DNA of 64,000 nucleotides from Candidatus Poribacteria bacterium (GCA_958295945.1 OY282386.1:1751371-1815370); one strand, 5' to 3'; positions 42,307 to 58,965 are shown, counted from the stretch's first letter. A program made the numbers and translations. Notes: generated from the sequence alone by a model not told the origin.

Positions 42307-44742
42307 ATGTTGAAACAAATCTTTTCATTAGTAATCCTAATAGTAATCGTCTTTGTTGGGAATACTGTTGCAGAAATGAAACAAGAGAAGGAGAAGTCTA
42401 TGGCTGAACGTTGGGGATTATATGAAGTGACCTTGAATGGACCCGAGACAGGTAATCCTTTCACTGAGGTAGAATTGTCAGCAGAATTTAAACGAAGTGA
42501 TATAGAAGGTGGACGCACTTTTGAACCGCAAGGATTCTATGATGGCAATGGTATATACAAAATCCGTTTCATGCCAGATGAAGTTGGTGAATGGATATAC
42601 ACAACAAAAAGTAGTAGCGCAGAATTGAACGGTAAAACCGGTGAATTTACGTGTATTGAATCGACTGATGGCAACCACGGACCAGTTCAAGTGTATAAAG
42701 ATTTCTATCTACAATACGCTGACGGTACGCCGTATCATCAGTTTGGCACGACCTGCTATGCATGGACACATCAGGGAGAGGAGATGGAGGAGCAGACGCT
42801 TGATACTCTCACCGACGCACCATTCAACAAGCTGCGGATGTGTATCTTTCCTAAAGATTACTCCTACAATAAGAATGAACCCGTCTACTATCCATATCAG
42901 GGAAAACCGCTCAAAGATTGGGATTTCACAAGATTCAATCCAGAATTCTGGCAGCATTTTGAACAAAGAGTGCAAGATTTGTTGAAGCTTGGTATTGAAG
43001 CGGATATAATCCTATTCCACACTTATGATCGATGGGATTTTGAGAATATGGATGCTGAAAGTGATGATCATTATATACGTTATGCTGTTGCACGCTTGGC
43101 GGCTTTCCGTAATGTGTGGTGGTCTCTTGCGAATGAATACGACATCATGCCATCGAAAACGGAATCGGATTGGGATCGGTTTTTTCAGATTATACGAGAC
43201 CACGATCCATATCAAAGGTTGCGCGGGATACATAACTGCAGAGGTTGGTATGACCACAGTAAACCTTGGGTGACACATACAAGTATTCAAACATCAAATA
43301 TGGCTGAAGGTATCCTTTACCGCACACGATATAATAAACCGGTTATCTATGATGAGTGTCGTTATGAGGGAGATATACCGCAAGGATGGGGAAACATTAC
43401 TGCACGACAGATGGTTCAAAATTTTTGGGCAGGTACTGTATCAGGATGTTATGTTGGACATGGAGAAACATACAAGCATCCTGAAGACCTTTTATGGTGG
43501 GCAAAGGGAGGCATACTTAGAGGTGAAAGTCCGGCACGTATAGCATTTCTAAAAGAATTTATGACAGATGCCCCCGAATTTGATACGCTTGAACCGGTCG
43601 GCGATGATAAGGGACGATATGTCCTTGCTAAAGAAGGTGAATATTATTTGGTTTATACAACTGAACCGCAAACAATAACAGTTAAACTGCATGGAAACAC
43701 TCCGTATAAAATTGATGGCATTGATACTTGGAATATGAAAATTCTACCTGTTGGGACTGCACAACCAGGAGAATATACATTTGCGTCATCGCAAACTGAT
43801 TTTGCATACCGTTTTACGCCTTATGCACCGGGTGAGAAACTTCGTCCAGAAGCAAAAGCATCTGCTGATGTTCTTCAAGGCAGTGCACCGCTTACTGTCT
43901 CATTTTCAGCATCAGATGAATTGACGCAACAATGGGATTTTGGTGATGGAATCACATCAGATGAATCAAATCCAACACACGTTTATGAGAATCTTGGACA
44001 ATATACCGCCCTGCTCACTGTTACAGATGCAGATGGTGCATCGGCAATAACCGCACGGACCATTAATGTTATGCCTGCTGTTCCTGATGACATAGGCACA
44101 CATAAAGAATTTCCTGGATCACGCGACGGACTTGTGTTTGCTTGGAACAGTAAGTTTGAGGATAGCAATGAAATCGAATCCCGCGATGAAGCAAGAATTA
44201 CCGAACACGGACAAATGGATCTGGCTGGTGGTGCATTTATCGCAAAAAATGTGAATGAAATTCTGCTTGCAGCATGCCAGAAAAGCAATCAATTAACAAT
44301 TGAATGTCTCGTCAGCACAGACAATCTAAATCAGAGCGGTCCGGCGCGTATAATATCGTTCTCAAAGGATGTCACCCATCGTAACTTTACCTTGGGACAG
44401 GATAGAAATCGGTTTGCCATTAGGATTCGAACACCGCGAACAGGTACAAACGGTCAGGGAGGCGAGTTCTCATTTGGTGGGATTGACTCTGGAAAGGCAA
44501 CACATGTCATCGTCAGTTATTTTTCTGGGAATGTTCATTGCTATGTTAACGGTGAGTTAGTCCATACTGGCAACGGAATTCAAGGTGACTTCAGCAATTG
44601 GGAACTATATCCGCTTATTTTCGGGGATGAAGCAAGTGGTGGAAGGAACTGGGTAGGTAAGCTGAGTCATGTTGGAATCTATAGTCGGTTTATTGGTTTG
44701 GAAGAGGCTGCACATAAGTTTAAACTGATTCAAAGTGAATAG
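42307..44742 (+). CDS. Secreted glycoside hydrolase: DUF5060, apiosidase-like barrel, PKD, LamG
   Basis: 811 residues. Signal peptide 1-22. Residues 30-120 are a DUF5060-type beta domain (WGLYEVTLNG, VELSAEFKRSD, EWIYTTKSS). Residues 125-420 are a TIM barrel of the DUF4038/apiosidase-like kind, with the likely acid/base Glu in WWSLANEYDIMPS and the nucleophile Glu in VIYDECRYEGD. A DUF5605-like cap follows (VYTTEPQTITVKL, ILPVGTAQPGEYTF). A PKD domain follows (about 510-595: WDFGDGITSDESNPTHVYEN), then a LamG domain (600-805). It would cleave an extracellular polysaccharide. Promoter and start are clear. The substrate is unknown. Confidence 0.86.
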   Translation: MLKQIFSLVILIVIVFVGNTVAEMKQEKEKSMAERWGLYEVTLNGPETGNPFTEVELSAEFKRSDIEGGRTFEPQGFYDGNGIYKIRFMPDEVGEWIYTTKSSSAELNGKTGEFTCIESTDGNHGPVQVYKDFYLQYADGTPYHQFGTTCYAWTHQGEEMEEQTLDTLTDAPFNKLRMCIFPKDYSYNKNEPVYYPYQGKPLKDWDFTRFNPEFWQHFEQRVQDLLKLGIEADIILFHTYDRWDFENMDAESDDHYIRYAVARLAAFRNVWWSLANEYDIMPSKTESDWDRFFQIIRDHDPYQRLRGIHNCRGWYDHSKPWVTHTSIQTSNMAEGILYRTRYNKPVIYDECRYEGDIPQGWGNITARQMVQNFWAGTVSGCYVGHGETYKHPEDLLWWAKGGILRGESPARIAFLKEFMTDAPEFDTLEPVGDDKGRYVLAKEGEYYLVYTTEPQTITVKLHGNTPYKIDGIDTWNMKILPVGTAQPGEYTFASSQTDFAYRFTPYAPGEKLRPEAKASADVLQGSAPLTVSFSASDELTQQWDFGDGITSDESNPTHVYENLGQYTALLTVTDADGASAITARTINVMPAVPDDIGTHKEFPGSRDGLVFAWNSKFEDSNEIESRDEARITEHGQMDLAGGAFIAKNVNEILLAACQKSNQLTIECLVSTDNLNQSGPARIISFSKDVTHRNFTLGQDRNRFAIRIRTPRTGTNGQGGEFSFGGIDSGKATHVIVSYFSGNVHCYVNGELVHTGNGIQGDFSNWELYPLIFGDEASGGRNWVGKLSHVGIYSRFIGLEEAAHKFKLIQSE

Positions 44743-48804: not shown

Positions 48805-49137
48805 CTGCAAGATCAGGTGTTGAGTAAAGCGATTTTATTTTATATCTCACTCAGCATATTTCACTTAACACAATTATCGTGATATACATAAACTGGAACA
48901 TCATCAGTCTTACCTCTCATAGTCCGTTAGGAGTTGGACAATCCACGCTCTCTCAACTCAAATCAAGACGCTCTGAAGACTGGGAACGCATAAAACAAGA
49001 AATAAGAACAACCGAAATCATCCGACTCGTCTTTGAAAATGAACCCAATACCATCCCGCATCATAACACCACAGAATAAATAATCACAATAAAAAGTAAT
49101 AAAATATAAAAAGTATTGCACAAAAAATAAACTGTGT
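48805..49137. other. Gap without a confident gene
   Basis: A 66-codon frame (48879-49079) contains SQLKSRRSEDWERIKQEIRT and could be the end of a lost gene, but it has no ribosome-binding site and no recognised relatives. AT-rich otherwise. Confidence 0.4.
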
Positions 49138-49237
49138 GTATTATACCAAATTAACGTAAGTTGTAGCGCGAGGTCTCCGTGCTTTGCAATGCAAACTTTA
49201 TCAGAAAAGGACTAATCAAGTTAATTTGGTATAATAC
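49138..49237. repeat. 100-bp MITE-like element with perfect 18-bp inverted ends
   Basis: Left GTATTATACCAAATTAAC (49138-49155) is the exact reverse complement of 49220-49237. The interior GCGCGAGGTCTCCG and ACTTTATCAGAAAAGGACTAA recurs near 10217 and 10368. No ORF. Confidence 0.8.
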
Positions 49238-49396
49238 AGTTAACTCCTAAAACAGAAACCGCCAGATGGGGTCCCTTCTCAACATTAATTTGGAGAGTTT
49301 CTGGTTTAGGAGCCAGGGTTCCCACCCTTTATTATCCAATAGGTTGAAAGTCTACCGAGACAAGGAGCAGGGTGGTTCATGTTCAGATTGAAGGGT

Positions 49397-49541
49397 GTGT
49401 CCAGTTTTTGGCACTAACTTCAGACTACCCATTGTCCTGCGGGGTCTCCGTGCCCCGCCATCTTTCAATCTACCAACAATGGTGAGGCACGGAGACCCCG
49501 CAGGACAATAGATGATGAGATGTGTGCCAAAAACTGGACAC
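49397..49541. repeat. 145-bp two-tier palindrome
   Basis: Outer arms are 18-bp perfect inverted repeats (GTGTCCAGTTTTTGGCAC at 49397; mirror at 49524-49541). Inner arms are 24-bp perfect inverted repeats (49431-49454 with 49486-49509, containing GCGGGGTCTCCGTGCC). A 31-nt loop lies at the centre. The transcript would form a very stable hairpin. No coding potential; a small nested element is likely. Confidence 0.82.
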
Positions 49542-49587
49542 CCAGGCCCCTGAAATAGATTCATCCCCGGATCCGCATTATTTTAAC

Positions 49588-49657
49588 TTGACAAATATAT
49601 CTACAGGACATATAATACTATTACTCCGTATTTAGAATTAGTATTTTAATGTAGTAT
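49588..49657 (+). promoter_or_regulatory. Consensus promoter and candidate BlaI operators
   Basis: TTGACA (49588-49593), 17-bp spacer, TATAAT (49611-49616). Inverted AATACTA (49614-49620) and TAGTATT (49639-49645), plus TAGTAT at 49652-49657, overlap and follow the -10 box. BlaI/MecI repressors bind dyads of TAC/GTA half-sites near their own promoters, so autoregulation of the gene at 49746 is likely (inference). Confidence 0.65.
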
Positions 49658-49745: not shown

Positions 49746-50144
49746 ATGACAGATAATAAATTACACCGTTTAGAACTTGAAGTGATGAAAGTGGTATGGA
49801 AATTGACGCGTGCCACAGTCAATGATGTTCTTGAAAACATTGATCGTAAGCTTGCCTATACCACCGTCGCCACTACTATGAAAAGCCTTGAAAAGAAAGG
49901 TTTTTTGTCGCATCAAGTGGATGGGAGGACATTCGTTTACCAGCCTTTAGTCAAAGAAACGGAGATTACACATACTATGCTCAACGATTTATTGGAACGT
50001 CTCTTTGACAATTCAGCAGAAAAACTGGTAAATACGCTACTTGAGGTGCGACAAACCAGTTCTGAAGAACTTGACCGTTTACAAAAACTGATTAATGACT
50101 ACCAACCGGAAAAAATATCTGGAATTCAATATCACAAGGAGTAA
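49746..50144 (+). CDS. blaI: BlaI/MecI/CopY-family transcriptional repressor
   Basis: 132 residues, the family's usual size. Winged helix-turn-helix: LHRLELEVMKVVWKLTRATV, NDVLENIDRKLAYTTVATTM (recognition helix), KGFLSHQVDGRTFVYQPLV. The C-terminal half is the dimerisation and proteolysis-sensitive region. In the bla/mec systems the repressor is cleaved after the membrane sensor BlaR1 detects a ligand. Here the next gene, 3 bp downstream, is a BlaR1-type M56 peptidase, so the pair forms a sensor-repressor switch. The regulon may be the whole operon to 58965 (inference). Confidence 0.92.
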   Translation: MTDNKLHRLELEVMKVVWKLTRATVNDVLENIDRKLAYTTVATTMKSLEKKGFLSHQVDGRTFVYQPLVKETEITHTMLNDLLERLFDNSAEKLVNTLLEVRQTSSEELDRLQKLINDYQPEKISGIQYHKE

Positions 50145-50147
50145 CCG

Positions 50148-53100
50148 ATGACTAAGCAAATTCTACTTTCATTACTCAACTGTTCATGGCAATGGGGGTT
50201 GTTAGGCGGTTTGACATGGCTTATCACAAGACGTTTTCGCAGCACCAACACCACAACACATTTGCTTTGGCTACTGTTTCTAATCAGTTTGCCAATCCTA
50301 TTTGCTTTAAATCAGTTTGTGCCAGCAATTTCAATCGGTAACACAGCACCTGAATTGACGCAGGTGGATTCTTTAAACATTTCTGCTTTAGCTGCTCAAA
50401 ATGCAGACCTACCAGAGATTTCATTCACTGAAGGCAACATGCAATCACAGGAACAAACGGTTACAGCCAGCCAGTCAACATTAAATTGGTCTACGACCAA
50501 TTTAATACTCTGCATTTGGACTATTGGGACACTTGCTATGTTACTCCGAATTACCTTCGGCTTGTATCGAATCCACCGACTACGCCGTACTGCGAGTGTA
50601 GCTGATGAATCATATCAAGCAATCTGCAAAAACTTGGCTCAAAAACTGAACATAAGTCATCCGGTCACCGTCTGCTTTTCGGATAGGGTCATATCACCAA
50701 TCTCATTTGGTTGGTTATCTCCTTACATTCTAATTCCGAGAAAGATGAATCTAGATCAGTTTGAATTGGTAGCCGCTCACGAATTAGCACACGTGCAACG
50801 ATTGGATTGGTTAACAAATCTCTTTTCGCACTTGGTTGGTGCTATTTTCTTTTTCCATCCGATTTATCATATTCTCAATCGAAAACTTGTCAATCTACGG
50901 GAACGAATCTGTGATGATTGGGTTATTCAATTGACGGGTGCAAGGAAAACTTATGCACAGTGTTTGTTAGATATGGTTCACCACAAAGAACAGTCCATTC
51001 CGCTAACTATGGGGTTGAATGAACCATCTGAATTGGAATCCCGAATTAACTCCATTTTGAAAGACAAGCGACCGCTTGAGTTACAGCCCAGGAGACGTTT
51101 GCTTGTGGTAGCATTAACGTTGCTCTTAACCTGTCTCCCTTTGCTTGCAATGGCACAGTTAGTTCCACTGAGAACTGTGCAACTCTCGCTATTTGCACAG
51201 ACACCTCAGGAATCGGAAAAAGCGGTTGAAAAAGTTGAAAAGAAGCGTGGCGAGCAGAAAAAACTTGCAAAAATGAAGGATGAGAAGGAATACAAAGAAA
51301 ACAAATCTATAAAGGTTTTGGATCCGTCAACATTTTATGGATCACAGGAAAACCGTTTGTTCTCCGGACCACAAACTGGTGAAAAGCTTCCACCGTTCCA
51401 AGTTAAAGGAATTGATGGTAAGAAATTTGACATTGCTGCCCACACAGATGGGAAACCTATCGTTTTATTCCTGCAAGATGCTAATGGCGTAGGCATAAAA
51501 GGTCTTGCAAATGCGATCCGCATGTTACAATATGTTGATAGACTTCATAAGGGACAAGAGACAACGAAAGCGGAACAATCTAATCGAGGACTACAGATAG
51601 GTGTTGTCATCCTCGCAGATGAGATGGAGGAATTACCTGAATGGGCGCGGAATATGTACAAAAATGAAATTCCAAATTTCGTGTTAAAAGGTATATCTCC
51701 AGATGGTCGTGAAGGACCAGGAAGCTATGGATTGAACCGTAATGTAGCACAGACCGTCATTGTCGCAAAAGATGGAAAGGTCTTGCACAATTTGGCTTTC
51801 ACGCAACCGATGCTCTATACCGACCCATACCTCCTCGGTGCCATCGCACAAGCGATTGAAGTAGAACCCGGTACACTGGAACAGTGGCTGAATGAAGCGT
51901 CAGCGAAAGGCTCTAAGCAAAACGATTTGGACAAGAAGACAACCGCTTCTAAGTTTGCCGCGCTTCAAAAAGGCATCAGGAATGGAAAAATACCAAGATC
52001 AGAGGTGGCAGAACATCTCAAAAAACTGGGAATCACTTGGGAAGAAGGTGAACAACTTCTCAAGGAGACAAAAGATGATGCACAGATGATGCGCAGAGAA
52101 CGCCGCTACGATAATCGCCGCCAAGTAGAAATTGCTGATCCAGCAGATTTCAACTCCTCCGAAGATAAGCCACTGTTTTCTGGACCGCAACCAGGTGAAA
52201 AACTTCCACCATTGAAGGCAACAGGGATACGTGGTGCAGCAAAAGATAAAACATTCGATTTTATTGCTAGAGCTGATGGACAACCGCTCGTGCTGCTGTT
52301 GCAAGACGAGAGTGGCGTGGGGTTGCGTGGGTTGTATGATATTGCGCGTGTTGTTGAGAAAATCTCCAACAAATCCGAAAAAGACCTGCTCATCAGCGTT
52401 GTATTTTTCAGCGATGATTCCGCTGCGTTGAAACAAATCACTCAGCATGTGCCTAAGAACGTTCCATTAGTAGGTATTTCTCCTGATGGTCGTGAAGGAT
52501 CGGGGAACTACGGATTGAACCGTAATGTGGCACAGACGGTTATCATCGCAAAGGATGGAAAAGTGCTTCATAACTTCGCTTTCACACAACCTTTACTCTT
52601 TGCTGACCCACATGTCATCGGTGCTATGGCAGATGTAATTCAGGAACAACCAGAAACAGTCGCGAAATGGCTGAACGAAAAACCTGTTGAAGGTGAACGG
52701 ATGCAGCGTGATAGAGAAGGAATGGAACGCGAGGGCAAACGTGATCCTTCTCCAGAAGAGCGCATTAAGCGCGATAGAGACTCAAGGGTAAATCCAGAAG
52801 GTAGACAAATGGAACACGAGAGAGAACGGACACCATCTCGGGAAGAACTTGTCAAACGGTTTGACAAAGATGGTGATGGCAAACTCAATGATGAAGAAGG
52901 CCTGGCAGCACGCCGCGCTTTAGCAAATCGTGAAAGCCAAAACCGAAACCGTAATACTCGTGTTGAGGTAAAAAATCCTGCTGAGTTCAAGAAGGTGCAG
53001 GGTACAAAATTCTTCTCTGGTCCACAACCCGGGGAAAAACTTCCACCTTTGGTGGCTAAGGGTATTAATGGTGACGTTAAGGACATGACATACGATGTCA

Positions 53101-53840
53101 TCGCCAAGGCAGATGGACAACCGCTCGTTCTCTTCATGCAAGACGAAAGCCGTCTTGGATTACGCGGATTAGTTGGTGTTTCTCGTCTACTCGCTCAAAT
53201 CAACGAGAAGTCTAAACAGAAAATGCATATAAGTGCTGTGTTTTTTGGGGACACACCAGATACCTTGGAGAATCAAACCAGTAGGCTAGTTCCACATATT
53301 CCCAATGGTGTCTTACTTGGTATCTCTCAAGACGGCCGGGAAGGTCCAGGCAGCTACGGGTTGAATCGTAATGTAGCGCAAACGGTTATCATCGCCAAAG
53401 ATGGAAAAGTGCTTTACAACTTCGCTTTCGCACAACCGATGCTCCGACCCGACCCTTATGTGCTTGGTGCTATCGGAGAAGCAATTGAGATCCAACCTGC
53501 TATGCTTGAAAGATGGTTGAACGGAAAAACTCCCATTATAAAAATCAAAAATCCCGCAGAGGGAAAAGAAGTTGGTAAAATGTTCTTAACTGGAACTTTT
53601 GTATTCAACGAATCAGTTGTACACTTAGATGGAACCGTTGTCCAGTTTGATGAATTGATTACATTCCTCCGTAACTTACCTGAAAAACAAAAATCTATGC
53701 TTATTATCCTATCAGAACAAGATGTACTTCATGAACAGATTGTCAAAGTGATGAATATAGCAAAAGAGGCGGGTATTAAAAAAATTGGATTCGGACTTAA
53801 TAATGTTAACAATAAGCGTATGGAAAGCGGAAGTGAATAA
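50148..53840 (+). CDS. BlaR1-type M56 peptidase fused to three Cys-less redoxin-like repeats, an EF-hand and an ExbD-like tail
   Basis: 1230 residues; BlaR1 is about 600. N-terminal membrane helices near 5-25, 38-57 and 125-145; M56 zinc site H211-E-L-A-H215 in AAHELAHVQRLDW; a further helix near 325-345. Then three repeats at about 391-585, 657-835 and 939-1125, each with LFSGPQxGEKLPP, xxDGxPxVLxxQD, ISPDGREGPGSYGLNRNVAQ and AKDGKVLxNxAF. They resemble AhpC/TlpA-type redoxins but lack the CxxC (replaced by D-x-x-G/L-G). An EF-hand, FDKDGDGKLNDEEG, lies near 904. The end (about 1150-1215) resembles the periplasmic domain of ExbD (VHLDGTVVQFDELITFLRNL). AAGGAG overlaps the blaI end. Probably senses an extracytoplasmic ligand and cleaves BlaI. 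Confidence 0.85.
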   Translation: MTKQILLSLLNCSWQWGLLGGLTWLITRRFRSTNTTTHLLWLLFLISLPILFALNQFVPAISIGNTAPELTQVDSLNISALAAQNADLPEISFTEGNMQSQEQTVTASQSTLNWSTTNLILCIWTIGTLAMLLRITFGLYRIHRLRRTASVADESYQAICKNLAQKLNISHPVTVCFSDRVISPISFGWLSPYILIPRKMNLDQFELVAAHELAHVQRLDWLTNLFSHLVGAIFFFHPIYHILNRKLVNLRERICDDWVIQLTGARKTYAQCLLDMVHHKEQSIPLTMGLNEPSELESRINSILKDKRPLELQPRRRLLVVALTLLLTCLPLLAMAQLVPLRTVQLSLFAQTPQESEKAVEKVEKKRGEQKKLAKMKDEKEYKENKSIKVLDPSTFYGSQENRLFSGPQTGEKLPPFQVKGIDGKKFDIAAHTDGKPIVLFLQDANGVGIKGLANAIRMLQYVDRLHKGQETTKAEQSNRGLQIGVVILADEMEELPEWARNMYKNEIPNFVLKGISPDGREGPGSYGLNRNVAQTVIVAKDGKVLHNLAFTQPMLYTDPYLLGAIAQAIEVEPGTLEQWLNEASAKGSKQNDLDKKTTASKFAALQKGIRNGKIPRSEVAEHLKKLGITWEEGEQLLKETKDDAQMMRRERRYDNRRQVEIADPADFNSSEDKPLFSGPQPGEKLPPLKATGIRGAAKDKTFDFIARADGQPLVLLLQDESGVGLRGLYDIARVVEKISNKSEKDLLISVVFFSDDSAALKQITQHVPKNVPLVGISPDGREGSGNYGLNRNVAQTVIIAKDGKVLHNFAFTQPLLFADPHVIGAMADVIQEQPETVAKWLNEKPVEGERMQRDREGMEREGKRDPSPEERIKRDRDSRVNPEGRQMEHERERTPSREELVKRFDKDGDGKLNDEEGLAARRALANRESQNRNRNTRVEVKNPAEFKKVQGTKFFSGPQPGEKLPPLVAKGINGDVKDMTYDVIAKADGQPLVLFMQDESRLGLRGLVGVSRLLAQINEKSKQKMHISAVFFGDTPDTLENQTSRLVPHIPNGVLLGISQDGREGPGSYGLNRNVAQTVIIAKDGKVLYNFAFAQPMLRPDPYVLGAIGEAIEIQPAMLERWLNGKTPIIKIKNPAEGKEVGKMFLTGTFVFNESVVHLDGTVVQFDELITFLRNLPEKQKSMLIILSEQDVLHEQIVKVMNIAKEAGIKKIGFGLNNVNNKRMESGSE

Positions 53841-53855
53841 TTGCGCGATGCAAAG

Positions 53856-53920
53856 TAGTAGGCACACTCCGTGTGCCGTAATCATTTCGCTTGTGGACGA
53901 CACGCGGAGTGTGCCTACTA
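53856..53920. repeat. REP-like palindrome (TAGTAGGCACACTCCG)
   Basis: TAGTAGGCACACTCCGTGTG at the left is mirrored by GGAGTGTGCCTACTA at the right around a 31-nt centre. It lies between the M56 and DUF1501 genes and may modulate readthrough or mRNA stability. Confidence 0.7.
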
Positions 53921-54018: not shown

Positions 54019-55374
54019 ATGAACACAGTAAAACGATGTGATGGGGTCAGTCGGCGAGATTTTCTACGGGTTGGTGGATTGACTGCACTTGGACTTGGAT
54101 TAGGCGACTTTTTTCACCTACAACGCGCCTTTGCAGACAACAACACAATTGGAGCAAAGGCAAAATCTTGTATCCTAATATGGTTAGATGGAGGTCCCAG
54201 TCATCTTGAGACTTTTGACCCGAAACCAGATGCACCACAAGAGGTTCGAGGACCGCTAAAGACTATTCCTACAAATGTTACGGGAATACACATCAGTGAA
54301 TGTCTTGAACAAACAGCAAGAATAATGGATAAATTCGCTATCATTCGCTCAATGACATCACCTCTTGGTGAACACAACCTTGGCACCCAATACTTGATGA
54401 CAGGCTACAAACCTACACCTGCGTTGGAGTATCCGACTTTTGGATCAACGATCGCCCATATCAGATTACAAAATGCTCAGAAGTCTGATGGAGCTTCTTT
54501 ATCGGTTTTACCACCTAACATCGCAGTTCCCAACTTTACTGGTGAATTATCAGGAAACGGATACCTACCAAGTGCAACACGTCCGTTTTCTGTTAGTAGT
54601 AATTCCAAAGACAATGATTTTAAGGTGCGTGATCTTGATTTCTATGAAGGGATTGATTTGACGCGTCTTTCTCGTAGGAAACAGTTTGTCAACGCACTCA
54701 ATGAATTTAGTAATGCTAAAGATGCAGGCTCAAAAACGGATCCTGATTTAGAACGTGCATATAATCTGATAACATCTCCTGAAGCGAAAGCTGCTTTTTC
54801 ACTCTCAGAGGAACCGCATGACGTGCGTCAACGATATGGACAAGGTGGCGTGAATGGTATCGGACATGCATGTCTACTTGCACGAAGGTTAGTGGAACGA
54901 GGTGTTCCATTTGTGACAGTCAATCATGCTGGATGGGACACACATCAAGATATATTCACACTCAAGGAACGTTATCCAACAGACAGAAATGCCCATCTGC
55001 CATCTCTTGATCGGGCACTCAGTGCGCTGATACAAGACCTTACGGACAGGCGTATGTTGGATGAAACACTCGTAATTGTTATGGGTGAGTTCGGTCGCAC
55101 ACCAAAGATTAACTCACAAGGTGGAAGAGATCATTGGCCTAATGTGTTCAGTGTGATGTTGGCTGGCGGCGGTGTGCAGGGAGGACAGATTATAGGGAGC
55201 AGCGATGCACTCGGTGAATTTCCAAAAGAACGTCCCGTGACACCATCGGATCTCTCATCCACAATCTACACGCTACTCGGCATTGATCCGAGTTTTGAAC
55301 TTCATACCAGCGACGGGAGACCCGTACGCGTTGCCCCTGACGGTGCTAAAGTCGTTTCCGAATTATTTGCGTAA
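54019..55374 (+). CDS. Tat-exported DUF1501 protein
   Basis: 451 residues from ATG 54019 (GAGGAGA upstream; the frame is open to 53944). The twin-arginine signal is SRRDFLRVGGLTALGLGLG. DUF1501 has the alkaline phosphatase/sulfatase fold: SCILIWLDGGPSHLETFDPKP near the start, ERGVPFVTVNHAGWDTHQDI in the middle, and VIVMGEFGRTPKINSQGGRDHW near the end, in family order. Function is unproven; in Planctomycetes it nearly always pairs with DUF1549 cytochromes in polysaccharide-degradation loci. Here the DUF1549 gene follows 14 bp later. Confidence 0.92.
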   Translation: MNTVKRCDGVSRRDFLRVGGLTALGLGLGDFFHLQRAFADNNTIGAKAKSCILIWLDGGPSHLETFDPKPDAPQEVRGPLKTIPTNVTGIHISECLEQTARIMDKFAIIRSMTSPLGEHNLGTQYLMTGYKPTPALEYPTFGSTIAHIRLQNAQKSDGASLSVLPPNIAVPNFTGELSGNGYLPSATRPFSVSSNSKDNDFKVRDLDFYEGIDLTRLSRRKQFVNALNEFSNAKDAGSKTDPDLERAYNLITSPEAKAAFSLSEEPHDVRQRYGQGGVNGIGHACLLARRLVERGVPFVTVNHAGWDTHQDIFTLKERYPTDRNAHLPSLDRALSALIQDLTDRRMLDETLVIVMGEFGRTPKINSQGGRDHWPNVFSVMLAGGGVQGGQIIGSSDALGEFPKERPVTPSDLSSTIYTLLGIDPSFELHTSDGRPVRVAPDGAKVVSELFA

Positions 55375-55388
55375 GTAAAAGGTGGATA

Positions 55389-57605
55389 ATGAAGGTAATC
55401 CAGATAATCCTAATCACATTGGTTCTTACTTTGTGTTGTTACTTGGTTCAAACTGTAACGTATGCCAATGAATACCAAACACCTAATCAATCCTCAGTTG
55501 CGAATGATTTTGTTGATTTTGAGAATGATCTGATACCGATTTTTAGCAAGTTTGGGTGTAACGCTGGGGCATGTCATGGTTCAGCCGCAGGTAGAGGCGA
55601 GTTTAAGTTGTCACTCTTTGGTGGCAATCCTCAAGCAGACTATAAGTCGATTGTTCGACAACTTGCTGGACGACGTATCAACCTGATGCACCCAGAACAA
55701 AGTCTCGTCATTCTAAAACCGACGGCACAGACAAACCATGGCGGCGGTCATGTGTTGGATGAAAATGGAGAAGCTGCGCGAATACTCCGCAGCTGGATAC
55801 AACAAGGTGCATCATACGAAACGCTGCGTCGTTTGGAACGCGTTGAAATATCACCACAAAAACATGTGATAGCGAATCTTGAGAGTCCCATTCAACTTTA
55901 CGCAGATGCTCATTTTTCAGATGGAACGAAAAGAGATGTAACACGATGGACTGTTTTTACAGCAGAGGATTCATCAGCAATTGAAATTGATGCATCAAAT
56001 GCGATAGCAAAATTAAAACGTCTAGGCCGGCATATCATACTTGCTCGTTATCTAACGGAAGTCGTATCGATAGAACTTATCGCACCTCTAAACAATGCAG
56101 AAATACAGAACAATCATAGGACAATAGAAAATTCCCAACGGACAAAATCAGCTGAGAAAATCATTGATATTGAAATTCAGAAATTACTCTCTATTTTGAG
56201 ATTGCCTTTTTCTGGCACTATAGATGATGCAACCTTTCTGCGGAGGGTTACACTTGATCTCACGGGACGTATTCCCACTACAGATGCAGTCAAAGCATTT
56301 ACTACAGATACCAGTAGAAAGAAAAGAGAGAATTTGGTTGATAAATTACTTGAGTCAAACGAATTTAACGAGTATTGGACTCTGCAATTTGCTAAACTAC
56401 TACGGATTGGTGCTAAGGAAAGAAACACACAAGGTGCGTTTGTCTACCACGAATGGCTTTCCAATCAGATTCGAGAAGGGGTTGGATATGACAAGATTGT
56501 ACGTACTGTTATATTGGCAACGGGTGATTCACATGAGATTGGTCCAGCGAATTTTTACCGGACGGTTGATGGTCCGCGTGAACAAGCGGAATTTGTGAGT
56601 GAACTCTTCATGGGTGTTCGGTTGCGGTGTGCAAATTGTCATAATCACCCACTTGACAAATGGACACAGGACGATTATCACGGATTAACTGCAATCTTCG
56701 CAAAAATTGAAGATGAACAGGTCGTCAAAGTAAAACCTTCTGCCGAAGTCATTCATCCAGCAACACGAGAAAAGGCGATTCCACGAATTCCTGGAGAAAA
56801 GTATTTACCTTCAGATATCTCTGATGGTCGTGGTGAATTAGTTGAATGGTTGACAAAGACAGATAATCCATATTTTGCAAAAGCGATTGTCAATCGGCTA
56901 TGGAAAGCGATGATGGGACGAGGATTAGTTGAACCTGTTGATGATTTTCGGTCAACCAATCCTGCCACTCATCTAGAATTACTGACTGCTTTGGCAGATG
57001 ACTTTGTAAAACATGGATATGAAATCAAACGAACACTTCAACTCATTGCGCTAAGCGATGCTTACGCACGCAGTTCCAATGCCCTATCAGAAAACAGATC
57101 AGATGATCGCTTTTACTCTCATGCCGTAAAGAAGCCACTATCTCCAGAGGTGTTAGCAGATGCAGTTTCTGATGTTCTTGATGTTCCTGATAGATATGGG
57201 AATGAACCGATAGGCACACGTGCTATCTCACTTGTTAATCCAAATACAGAATCTGACGCACTTGACATACTCGGTAGATGTTCACGTGAAACTTCATGCG
57301 AGAATTCGGATGAAGCAATTGATGGTCTTCAACGAAAACTACATCTATTCAACGGGGACCTTCTCAATGCTCGTATCGGTGTTAAAGACAGCAGATTGGA
57401 TAAACTGCTTATTCAAAATAAATCACCGATGGACATTGTTTCTGAATTCTATATTTCTGCGTTAAGTAGATATCCAACAGATGACGATATAACATTTTGG
57501 CAACAACACATTGATTTCAACGAGTCTGCGAATTCCCAACGCGCAATTCTTGAGGATTTGGTGTGGAGTCTCCTGACATGCGATGAATTTGTGATGAATC
57601 ATTAA
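55389..57605 (+). CDS. DUF1549/DUF1553 (PSD1) protein with cytochrome-like motifs
   Basis: 738 residues. Signal peptide 1-26. N-terminal Cys motif FGCNAGACHGSAAGRGEF near 56; then a beta domain (about 150-235); DUF1549 from about 255 (IDIEIQKLL, FLRRVTLDLTGRIPT) with a heme-binding CxxCH, RCANCHNHPLDKW (C414, C417, H418); and DUF1553 at the C-terminus (NPYFAKAIVNRLWKAMMGRGLVEPVDDFR; LDILGRCSRETSCENSDEA). Periplasmic. It forms the usual pair with the DUF1501 gene and is followed by the cytochrome-WD40 gene, all on one transcript. These are assumed to act in electron transfer to, or oxidation of, sugars. Confidence 0.92.
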   Translation: MKVIQIILITLVLTLCCYLVQTVTYANEYQTPNQSSVANDFVDFENDLIPIFSKFGCNAGACHGSAAGRGEFKLSLFGGNPQADYKSIVRQLAGRRINLMHPEQSLVILKPTAQTNHGGGHVLDENGEAARILRSWIQQGASYETLRRLERVEISPQKHVIANLESPIQLYADAHFSDGTKRDVTRWTVFTAEDSSAIEIDASNAIAKLKRLGRHIILARYLTEVVSIELIAPLNNAEIQNNHRTIENSQRTKSAEKIIDIEIQKLLSILRLPFSGTIDDATFLRRVTLDLTGRIPTTDAVKAFTTDTSRKKRENLVDKLLESNEFNEYWTLQFAKLLRIGAKERNTQGAFVYHEWLSNQIREGVGYDKIVRTVILATGDSHEIGPANFYRTVDGPREQAEFVSELFMGVRLRCANCHNHPLDKWTQDDYHGLTAIFAKIEDEQVVKVKPSAEVIHPATREKAIPRIPGEKYLPSDISDGRGELVEWLTKTDNPYFAKAIVNRLWKAMMGRGLVEPVDDFRSTNPATHLELLTALADDFVKHGYEIKRTLQLIALSDAYARSSNALSENRSDDRFYSHAVKKPLSPEVLADAVSDVLDVPDRYGNEPIGTRAISLVNPNTESDALDILGRCSRETSCENSDEAIDGLQRKLHLFNGDLLNARIGVKDSRLDKLLIQNKSPMDIVSEFYISALSRYPTDDDITFWQQHIDFNESANSQRAILEDLVWSLLTCDEFVMNH

Positions 57606-57621
57606 GGTGCCAAGGATAAGT

Positions 57622-58965
57622 ATGTACCATAAAGAAATTCTGTCAATCATAAAGATTATCATTCTTTTTCTTTTTTTCATGCCTTCTACTTCAGACCTGT
57701 CTGCTAATCCCCAAACTGTAGTGGATTTTGAGAAGTCAATTTCACCTATCTTACAGAACCGATGCTTCAAATGCCATAGTGCACCAACAATAGATGTAAA
57801 CGGGAACGTCACCAAACCGAAGGGAAGTGTTCAACTGGACAGTGTGTTGGGTATTCGGGAGAGTCTGCATGGTGAGGTAATAGTCGCAGGTGAACCTGAT
57901 AATAGCCTTCTCTATCATCGTATTACATTACCAGAAGGTGAAACAGGTATTATGCCACCAACAGAAGATAGCACTCCACTAACAAAACAGGAAACGGATC
58001 TATTTGAACAGTGGATTAAACAAGGTGCAGACTTTGGCGAATGGAAAGGGAATCAATCACAACGCATTCAATCAAAATCGAAGAGACATCAACCTACCGT
58101 CATGTCTCCAATCACCTCGCTTGTGTTTTCTCCCGATGGTAAATCCGTGATTGCATGTTCACAAGCGGGATTGCATATTTACGATTATCCCTCACTTGAC
58201 CAAACAAAGTTGATTGAAGTCAATGCATACAATATCCATGATGTCGCATTTTCACCCAATGGTGAACGGTTAGCAGTAGGTGGTGGCAATCCGGCAACTG
58301 AAGGGATTATAGAGATATTCTCATGGATAGAGCTAAAGTCACTTAACATTTTTAAACAACATAAAGATTCTGTTATGGCTGTATCTTGGCGAGATGAGAA
58401 TACTCTTGCATCAGCAAGTTTGGACAGAAGTATCATCTTGTGGGACCTATCATCAGGAAAACCGATTCAGCAGTTTGAGGGACATTCACGAGGTGTATCA
58501 TCTCTCTGTTTTCTCAATGATAATCAACTTCTTGTGAGTACTGGAATAGACCAAAACATACGAGTTTGGGACTTAACTTCTGGTGAGTTACTGCGAAGTA
58601 TGAACAATCACACGCTTCCTGTACACGACCTTGCCTTACGTCCACGTGAATCAACACTTCCCATGCTCGTTTCTGTAAGTGATGACAAGACCGTTCGTTT
58701 CTGGCAACCGACCATCGGTAGAATGGTAAAGTTTGCTCGTTTGAAGGGAACACCGTTGGACGTTTCGTGGATGCACAACGGCACACAAGTGATTGCAGCC
58801 TGTGATGATGGTATTATACGTCTTGTAGATCCTGATTCAGTGGAGGTAACTGCTGAGATTCAAGGAATATCAGGTTGGATCTATGCCCTTGCGGTACATC
58901 CTACAGATGGTAGTATCGTAATCGGCGGTGAAAACGGACAAGTGAAACGGATAATACCGAAGTAA
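57622..58965 (+). CDS. Planctomycete-type cytochrome c (PSCyt1) fused to WD40 propeller
   Basis: 447 residues from ATG 57622 (AAGGAT 5 nt upstream; GTG 57607 is also in frame). Signal peptide 1-28. Heme motif C48-F-K-C51-H52 in ILQNRCFKCHSAPT, with the PSCyt1 pattern KGSVQLDS, GEPDNSLLYHRIT and MPP as the distal Met segment (about 35-145). Then WD40 repeats at 160-445: TSLVFSPDGKSVIACSQ, LASASLDRSIILWDLSSGK, LVSTGIDQNIRVWDLTSG. It probably docks electrons or proteins at the periplasmic face. Final gene of the BlaI-started run. Confidence 0.9.
   Translation: MYHKEILSIIKIIILFLFFMPSTSDLSANPQTVVDFEKSISPILQNRCFKCHSAPTIDVNGNVTKPKGSVQLDSVLGIRESLHGEVIVAGEPDNSLLYHRITLPEGETGIMPPTEDSTPLTKQETDLFEQWIKQGADFGEWKGNQSQRIQSKSKRHQPTVMSPITSLVFSPDGKSVIACSQAGLHIYDYPSLDQTKLIEVNAYNIHDVAFSPNGERLAVGGGNPATEGIIEIFSWIELKSLNIFKQHKDSVMAVSWRDENTLASASLDRSIILWDLSSGKPIQQFEGHSRGVSSLCFLNDNQLLVSTGIDQNIRVWDLTSGELLRSMNNHTLPVHDLALRPRESTLPMLVSVSDDKTVRFWQPTIGRMVKFARLKGTPLDVSWMHNGTQVIAACDDGIIRLVDPDSVEVTAEIQGISGWIYALAVHPTDGSIVIGGENGQVKRIIPK

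Follow-up and report, generated by a model that had tools for sequence, protein, structure and literature searches.

Poribacteria are a bacterial lineage living in sponges and in the sea. In staphylococci, penicillin is sensed by a membrane receptor-protease of the BlaR1 kind. We have analyzed a gene of Candidatus Poribacteria whose product shares several features with the BlaR1/MecR1-BlaI/MecI systems of Staphylococcus aureus (PMC9834060), namely an M56 gluzincin domain with HEXXH and EXXXD motifs, an adjacent gene for a BlaI-type repressor, and a C-terminal domain past the last helix that is probably extracytoplasmic. Unlike BlaR1 and MecR1, it lacks a penicillin-binding domain and carries three thioredoxin-fold modules, an EF-hand loop and an ExbD tail; its gene adjoins a DUF1501/PSD1 cassette and no beta-lactamase gene. 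The modules share the predicted thioredoxin fold of ResA, DsbE (CcmG) and TlpA-type proteins, but are devoid of the CxxC motif and the conserved cis-proline and occur in tandem on a protease. The tail corresponds to the periplasmic domain of ExbD/TolR proteins, but is attached to a protease and has neither a transmembrane helix nor the motor aspartate.

The cassette genes are of the same kinds as those of the planctomycete PSCyt2/PSD1-DUF1501 pairs (PMC5615132, PMC2754498, PMC5587647), alongside which a stand-alone module is found. Planctomycetes are very rich in proteins of the DUF1501 and PSCyt/PSD families (PMC2754498), the function of which is still unexplained (PMC5615132). The module was not invented by the receptor and belongs elsewhere to this planctomycete gene set; since its ectodomain modules are part of that set, the receptor may switch a gene set of the planctomycete type. 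A conserved cysteine-less partner that is naturally fused to a well-understood repressor-protease switch offers a handle on the inducer and ligand of the cassette. The M56/BlaI system is known, whereas the ectodomain and the tie between the module and PSCyt/PSD1-DUF1501 genes appear undescribed in the literature searched, in which we found no paper on the receptor architecture, the module or its link to BlaI/M56.

The receptor, its modules and its repressor

The window is a stretch of 64,000 nucleotides from a single-contig genome of 5.34 Mb whose named relatives are Candidatus Poribacteria; scanning the window for tRNA genes and Rfam families gave no matches. The blaI promoter, the dyad and the genes from blaI to the end of the cassette, with their parts, lie on the + strand. 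The receptor gene (50148..53840; 1230 aa), delimited by ORF calling, Pfam and sequence analysis, begins and ends exactly where the preliminary description had placed it, and its single ORF holds the parts that were listed there: a BlaR1-type M56 domain, three repeats, an EF-hand and an ExbD-like tail. The M56 protease domain (residues 22-302; 50211..51053) matches Pfam PF05569 (E 9e-36), and a sequence search with it matches the solved BlaR1 chains 8exs/8exp. Its HELAH zinc motif (residues 211-215; 50778..50792), already recognized in the preliminary description, is invariant in 26 M56 relatives and belongs to an HEXXH...EXXXD gluzincin motif inside a multi-helix membrane domain. All eight catalytic or structural residues (H211, E212, H215, D220, E252, D256, Y269 and R299) are invariant in these relatives and are, by spacing and alignment, the counterparts of the BlaR1 residues discussed in PMC9834060. 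The NCBIfam model blaR1_generic scored 96.6 bits against a cut-off of 400 and was matched only at profile positions 30-329 of 585; no penicillin-binding Pfam domain was found in the receptor, in keeping with the suggested replacement of that domain. No other M56 domain in the 5.34-Mb genome exceeds the Pfam cut-off. The dN/dS ratio was 0.15-0.17 for the protease and 0.12-0.24 for the modules, which places both under purifying selection; the linkers after module 1 are less constrained (0.20-0.55).

The last transmembrane helix (residues 318-336; 51099..51155; hydropathy 2.6) is preceded by RRR, and a hydropathy scan of the receptor gave no hydrophobic helix past residue 336. In relatives that are devoid of M56 (L034-L036, L054), the helix is joined to the N-terminus, and in this position it resembles a signal peptide. 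This use of the helix, together with the RRR ahead of it, points to an outward topology in which the modules would be extracytoplasmic, as in BlaR1, and separated by the membrane from a zinc site facing the cytoplasm. Other M56 proteins of the phylum bear an ExbD tail only (L015), DUF4097 (L016), a lamin tail (L017), HEAT repeats (L022, L046) or carboxypeptidase-regulatory domains (L024, L045), showing that the M56 receptor framework swaps ectodomains. The HEAT-repeat ectodomains, found in other Poribacteria on M56 domains of the same subfamily, are long, and in L046 a BlaI-type gene lies directly upstream.

Modules 1 (residues 388-584; 51309..51899) and 2 (residues 659-846; 52122..52685) were delimited as sequence repeats and correspond to tree clades m1 and m2, and module 3 (residues 938-1127; 52959..53528) was assigned using AlphaFold2 and Foldseek. 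The three are 52-58% identical pairwise over ~190 aa, with self-search E values of 1e-52 to 1e-64, far beyond chance. A motif reported as kept in the repeats, GSYGLNRNVAQT, occurs unchanged in the first and third copies, but in copy 2 it reads GNYGLNRNVAQT. The module profile matched no chain among the PDB sequences and gave only chance-level matches, below the Pfam cut-offs, in Pfam/NCBIfam; the fold therefore had to come from structure. An AlphaFold2 model of the module, built from an alignment of 84 sequences, had a mean pLDDT of 93.8 and a pTM of 0.91. Foldseek searches with this model returned 310 PDB chains at E <= 0.001 with redoxins on top, among them DsbE (CcmG) from Chlorobium, ResA, Bcp and other peroxiredoxins; the match to 3gl3 had an E value of 4e-7 and a TM-score of 0.75 by target. 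The predicted structure thus bears out the redoxin-like nature of the repeats. The calcium loop corresponds to a single canonical EF-hand loop of 12 residues, DKDGDGKLNDEE (residues 905-916; 52860..52895), which is unpaired, matches Pfam EF-hand profiles weakly (below the cut-off), adopts a helix-loop-helix in the structure model, and is missing from L051 and L060.

The blaI gene (49746..50144; 132 aa), encoding a BlaI/MecI/CopY-type repressor (PF03965, E 1.3e-31), is a partner-repressor gene lying 3 bp upstream of the receptor gene, and a blaI gene is directly upstream in 17/17 M56-module loci whose contig reaches far enough. Its sigma-70 promoter (49588..49616) is TTGACA-17 nt-TATAAT, matches the consensus at 12/12 positions and is conserved in the aligned relatives. 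Overlapping the -10 element is a dyad, AATACTATTACTCCGTATTTAGAATTAGTATT (49614..49645), of the form AATACTA-N18-TAGTATT, whose conservation extends to 17 related blaI loci. It occurs once in the 5.34-Mb genome when up to three mismatches are allowed, and the upstream regions of the secreted forms that have no blaI (L061-L064) lack it. The classic BlaI core is TACA-N-TGTA; it was not a conserved feature of the aligned upstream regions of the blaI loci. The conserved dyad is a probable BlaI operator. Owing to this promoter and dyad, the single copy of the dyad, and the sole M56 domain over the Pfam cut-off, the BlaI/M56 pair looks dedicated. No convincing ORF occurs in the ~780 bp that precede the blaI promoter (48805-49587). 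In the single-chromosome assembly with locus L054 (8464-10846), blaI and the dyad are retained, M56 is deleted, and a gene for a secreted two-module-ExbD protein comes next, making this locus a natural protease knock-out.

Cassette linkage and distribution of the module

Between the receptor gene and the DUF1501 gene lies a 63-bp imperfect inverted repeat, AGTAGGCACACTCCG...CGGAGTGTGCCTACT (53857..53919), neither arm of which recurs elsewhere in the window; this is possibly a small repeat element. Downstream are genes for a DUF1501 protein with a Tat signal (54019..55374, with the start moved to the ATG at 54019; Pfam E 6e-102), a DUF1549/DUF1553 (PSCyt2-PSD1) protein with CNAGACH and CANCH motifs (55389..57605), and a cytochrome-like (CFKCH) and WD40 protein (57607..58965), the latter two assigned from Pfam and motifs. 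Both parts of the genomic context that had been proposed for comparison, the pairing of M56 with BlaI and the DUF1501/DUF1549 cassette, are therefore present. The window's genome (5.34 Mb) contains 7 DUF1501 and 6 PSD1 genes in total.

A DUF1501 gene is downstream in 19 of the 24 Poribacteria loci among the best 80 of 102 matches in the genome scan. The M56 stop and the DUF1501 start are ~9-20 bp apart in L057, L058, L060, L065 and L066; the corresponding gap in the window is 178 bp and contains the inverted repeat, which may weaken the case for co-transcription of receptor and DUF1501. By manual count, an orthologue of the DUF1501 gene (identity of 77% or more, with the next best at 50%) occurs in 23/30 module-positive and 0/55 module-negative Poribacteria genomes (Fisher 6e-15, in a test that ignores shared ancestry), a pattern to be expected if the whole locus is gained or lost together. 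In L042 (7549-8193; relative G035), the M56-module gene and DUF1501 are separated by a gene for an ECF sigma factor. L055 (6126-10633) is naturally split: a gene for M56 with one decayed module and a lamin tail comes first, then a gene for a secreted two-module protein, then the cassette.

Scanning 84,980 species genomes for the module and keeping the best 80 of 102 matches gave 76 module loci, 24 in Poribacteria and 52 in other genomes, nearly all of them Planctomycetota; these loci come from related genomes and are hence not independent counts. The module occurs in 30/85 Poribacteria genomes, 29 of them from one family and one a doubtful MAG. The module matches in the latter (G049) were set aside as possible contamination, as the MAG is fragmented, has 7% contamination and shows 51% GC on one contig. 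The search for the same architecture, which the preliminary description had called for, found ~18 loci among those retrieved, all in one Poribacteria family; the module ORF is free of an M56 motif in all 52 non-Poribacteria loci among the best 80 of 102 matches. In Planctomycetota, the module is a stand-alone secreted protein. PSD1 and/or DUF1501 genes lie beside it in 44/52 non-Poribacteria loci, and in 35/52 the PSD1 start is <=300 bp downstream (both among the best 80 of 102 matches). Rhodopirellula baltica has ~7325 genes in total. The 41 PSD1 copies of this species (PMC2754498) make up ~0.6% of its genes, which places the linkage of module and PSD1 far above chance even with loci that are not independent. 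Just past one planctomycete module-PSD1-DUF1501-WD40 cassette (L087, 7413-7805) is a BlaI-like gene, and the contig stops before a possible M56 gene. Three module loci (L078, L080, L107) are in MAGs binned as Gammaproteobacteria/Proteobacteria and are probably mis-binned, as suggested for L078 by a module identical to the Planctomycetota sequence L077.

In a maximum-likelihood tree, modules 1, 2 and 3 form separate cross-species clades (support 100/95, 99/92 and 96/94), indicating that the triplication predates these species and that the copies have stayed separate. Several lineages no longer have module 2. Loss of the M56 part, with modules and cassette retained, has occurred in several Poribacteria; these M56-less forms are nested inside the module clades and thus arose by deletion. 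This loss of M56, together with the stand-alone form in Planctomycetota, argues that the modules are primarily a component of the cassette and only secondarily a sensor.

Proposed signaling by the receptor

We propose that the BlaI/M56 signaling pair controls its own operon and that its ectodomain, a non-redox component of the cassette, senses a cassette partner or ligand, a proposal whose chances we consider evenly balanced. BlaI would occupy the dyad at the blaI promoter, and the M56 receptor would cross the membrane with the zinc site on the cytoplasmic face and the C-terminal chain on the outer side. This chain of cysteine-less TlpA/ResA-type modules would serve as a component of the DUF1549/DUF1553-DUF1501-cytochrome/WD40 cassette, so that a cassette partner or its ligand, on joining or leaving the modules, may turn the protease on. 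The active protease would cut BlaI, and the receptor and the downstream cassette, presumably co-transcribed, would be expressed. The scheme is strongest in the intact BlaI/M56 pair, in the fold and in the linkage, and weakest in what the modules bind. Several observations run against the mechanism: L054 keeps blaI and the dyad though M56 is deleted, M56 with one module occurs away from any adjoining cassette in L069, L075 and L081, and PSD1/DUF1501 genes are common in Planctomycetota. Sensing is also dispensable for the cassette, since L061-L064, which have neither blaI nor M56, keep the modules and the cassette.

A more specific version, possible though doubtful, sees in the module a dedicated, non-catalytic subunit of the ResA/CcmG type that recognizes either the cytochrome-like DUF1549/DUF1553 protein or the DUF1501 protein, and in the receptor a device that reports the state of this partner to BlaI. 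ResA and CcmG act on c-type cytochromes. Given that the fold is nearest to ResA/CcmG and that the partners contain CXXCH-like motifs, recognition of a cytochrome-like partner by the modules is a reasonable guess. Among 60 PSD1 proteins, an N-terminal CX4CH is found in 55 and CXXCH in 58. If true, a partner-reporting receptor would offer, for the first time, a regulatory handle on a highly abundant, unexplained planctomycete gene set.

It is unlikely, but deserves weight, that the modules serve the cassette in a structural or chaperone-like capacity and sense nothing, M56 being a mere anchor or a by-product of fusion with a neighboring BlaI/M56 pair. Such a role would suit the stand-alone secreted module that adjoins the cassette in Planctomycetota and the persistence of modules and cassette after several losses of M56 in Poribacteria. 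However, the invariance of all M56 catalytic residues, the protease dN/dS of ~0.16 and the retention of blaI, promoter and dyad indicate that the signaling half is under selection where present.

Missing cysteines and the ExbD-like tail

The receptor contains no cysteine after residue 329, and neither CxxC nor a peroxidatic cysteine occurs in the modules of the window or in any of their orthologues. Six single cysteines are scattered over 38 Poribacteria modules, never paired and none conserved. Module residues 62-68, where the first long helix begins and CxxC would be expected, read DESRLGL. The loss of CxxC claimed at the outset is upheld, as redox cysteines have been regained in no orthologue; with a redoxin fold predicted and the cysteines missing in orthologues, both tests that had been named as able to overturn the preliminary description leave it standing. 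That the modules still carry out thiol or metal chemistry as a hidden redox sensor, through residues other than CxxC or through the cysteines of a partner, strikes us as improbable. Their fold is nearest to ResA/DsbE/peroxiredoxin, with Sco copper chaperones lower in the Foldseek list, and the cassette partners carry CXXCH-type motifs; most Planctomycetota modules have H-x-x-T/N-R-P/Q at the old CxxC place, and a His near the old active site is kept in many of them. This His is not retained in the Poribacteria modules (QDES...GLRG), however, which as noted have no conserved cysteine, and nearly all aligned rows have Ala, Thr, Met or Ser at the cis-proline position, a Pro being confined to rare, decayed copies (L014 and L081, for example).

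The ExbD periplasmic-domain tail (53535..53798), assigned by sequence identity and a tail profile, directly follows module 3. It is 59% identical to the true ExbD of the same genome (149-153 aa, encoded beside an ExbB-like gene), a profile built from such tails matches solved ExbD periplasmic domains, and the match to Pfam ExbD (E 6e-4) is below the cut-off; the terminus is accordingly ExbD-like, as had been recognized. Foldseek with a longer model gave only redoxin-type folds among the top 50, so the assignment rests on sequence and predicted strand-helix order. Most likely, the tail was captured from a resident exbD gene. The further suggestion of contact with a proton-driven motor fared poorly, and coupling of the receptor to an ExbB/TonB-type motor is very improbable: the tail is clearly the ExbD periplasmic domain and would lie on the same membrane side as the modules, but the ExbD transmembrane helix and its aspartate are absent, orthologues L049, L067 and L068 are tail-less, the tail evolves faster (dN/dS 0.21-0.35), and plain dimerization or binding of cell wall or a TonB peptide would suffice.

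We give almost no credence to an assembly or gene-calling artefact that wrongly joined separate genes, for although MAG locus L048 has the receptor protein in two ORFs with unresolved bases in between, the genome of the window is one contig, the full-length ORF recurs in many independent assemblies, including single-chromosome L049 and L067, and the joined domains are under purifying selection by dN/dS. Near the locus, the window also encodes an apiosidase-like glycoside hydrolase with PKD and laminin-G domains (42307-44742), a possible polysaccharide enzyme.
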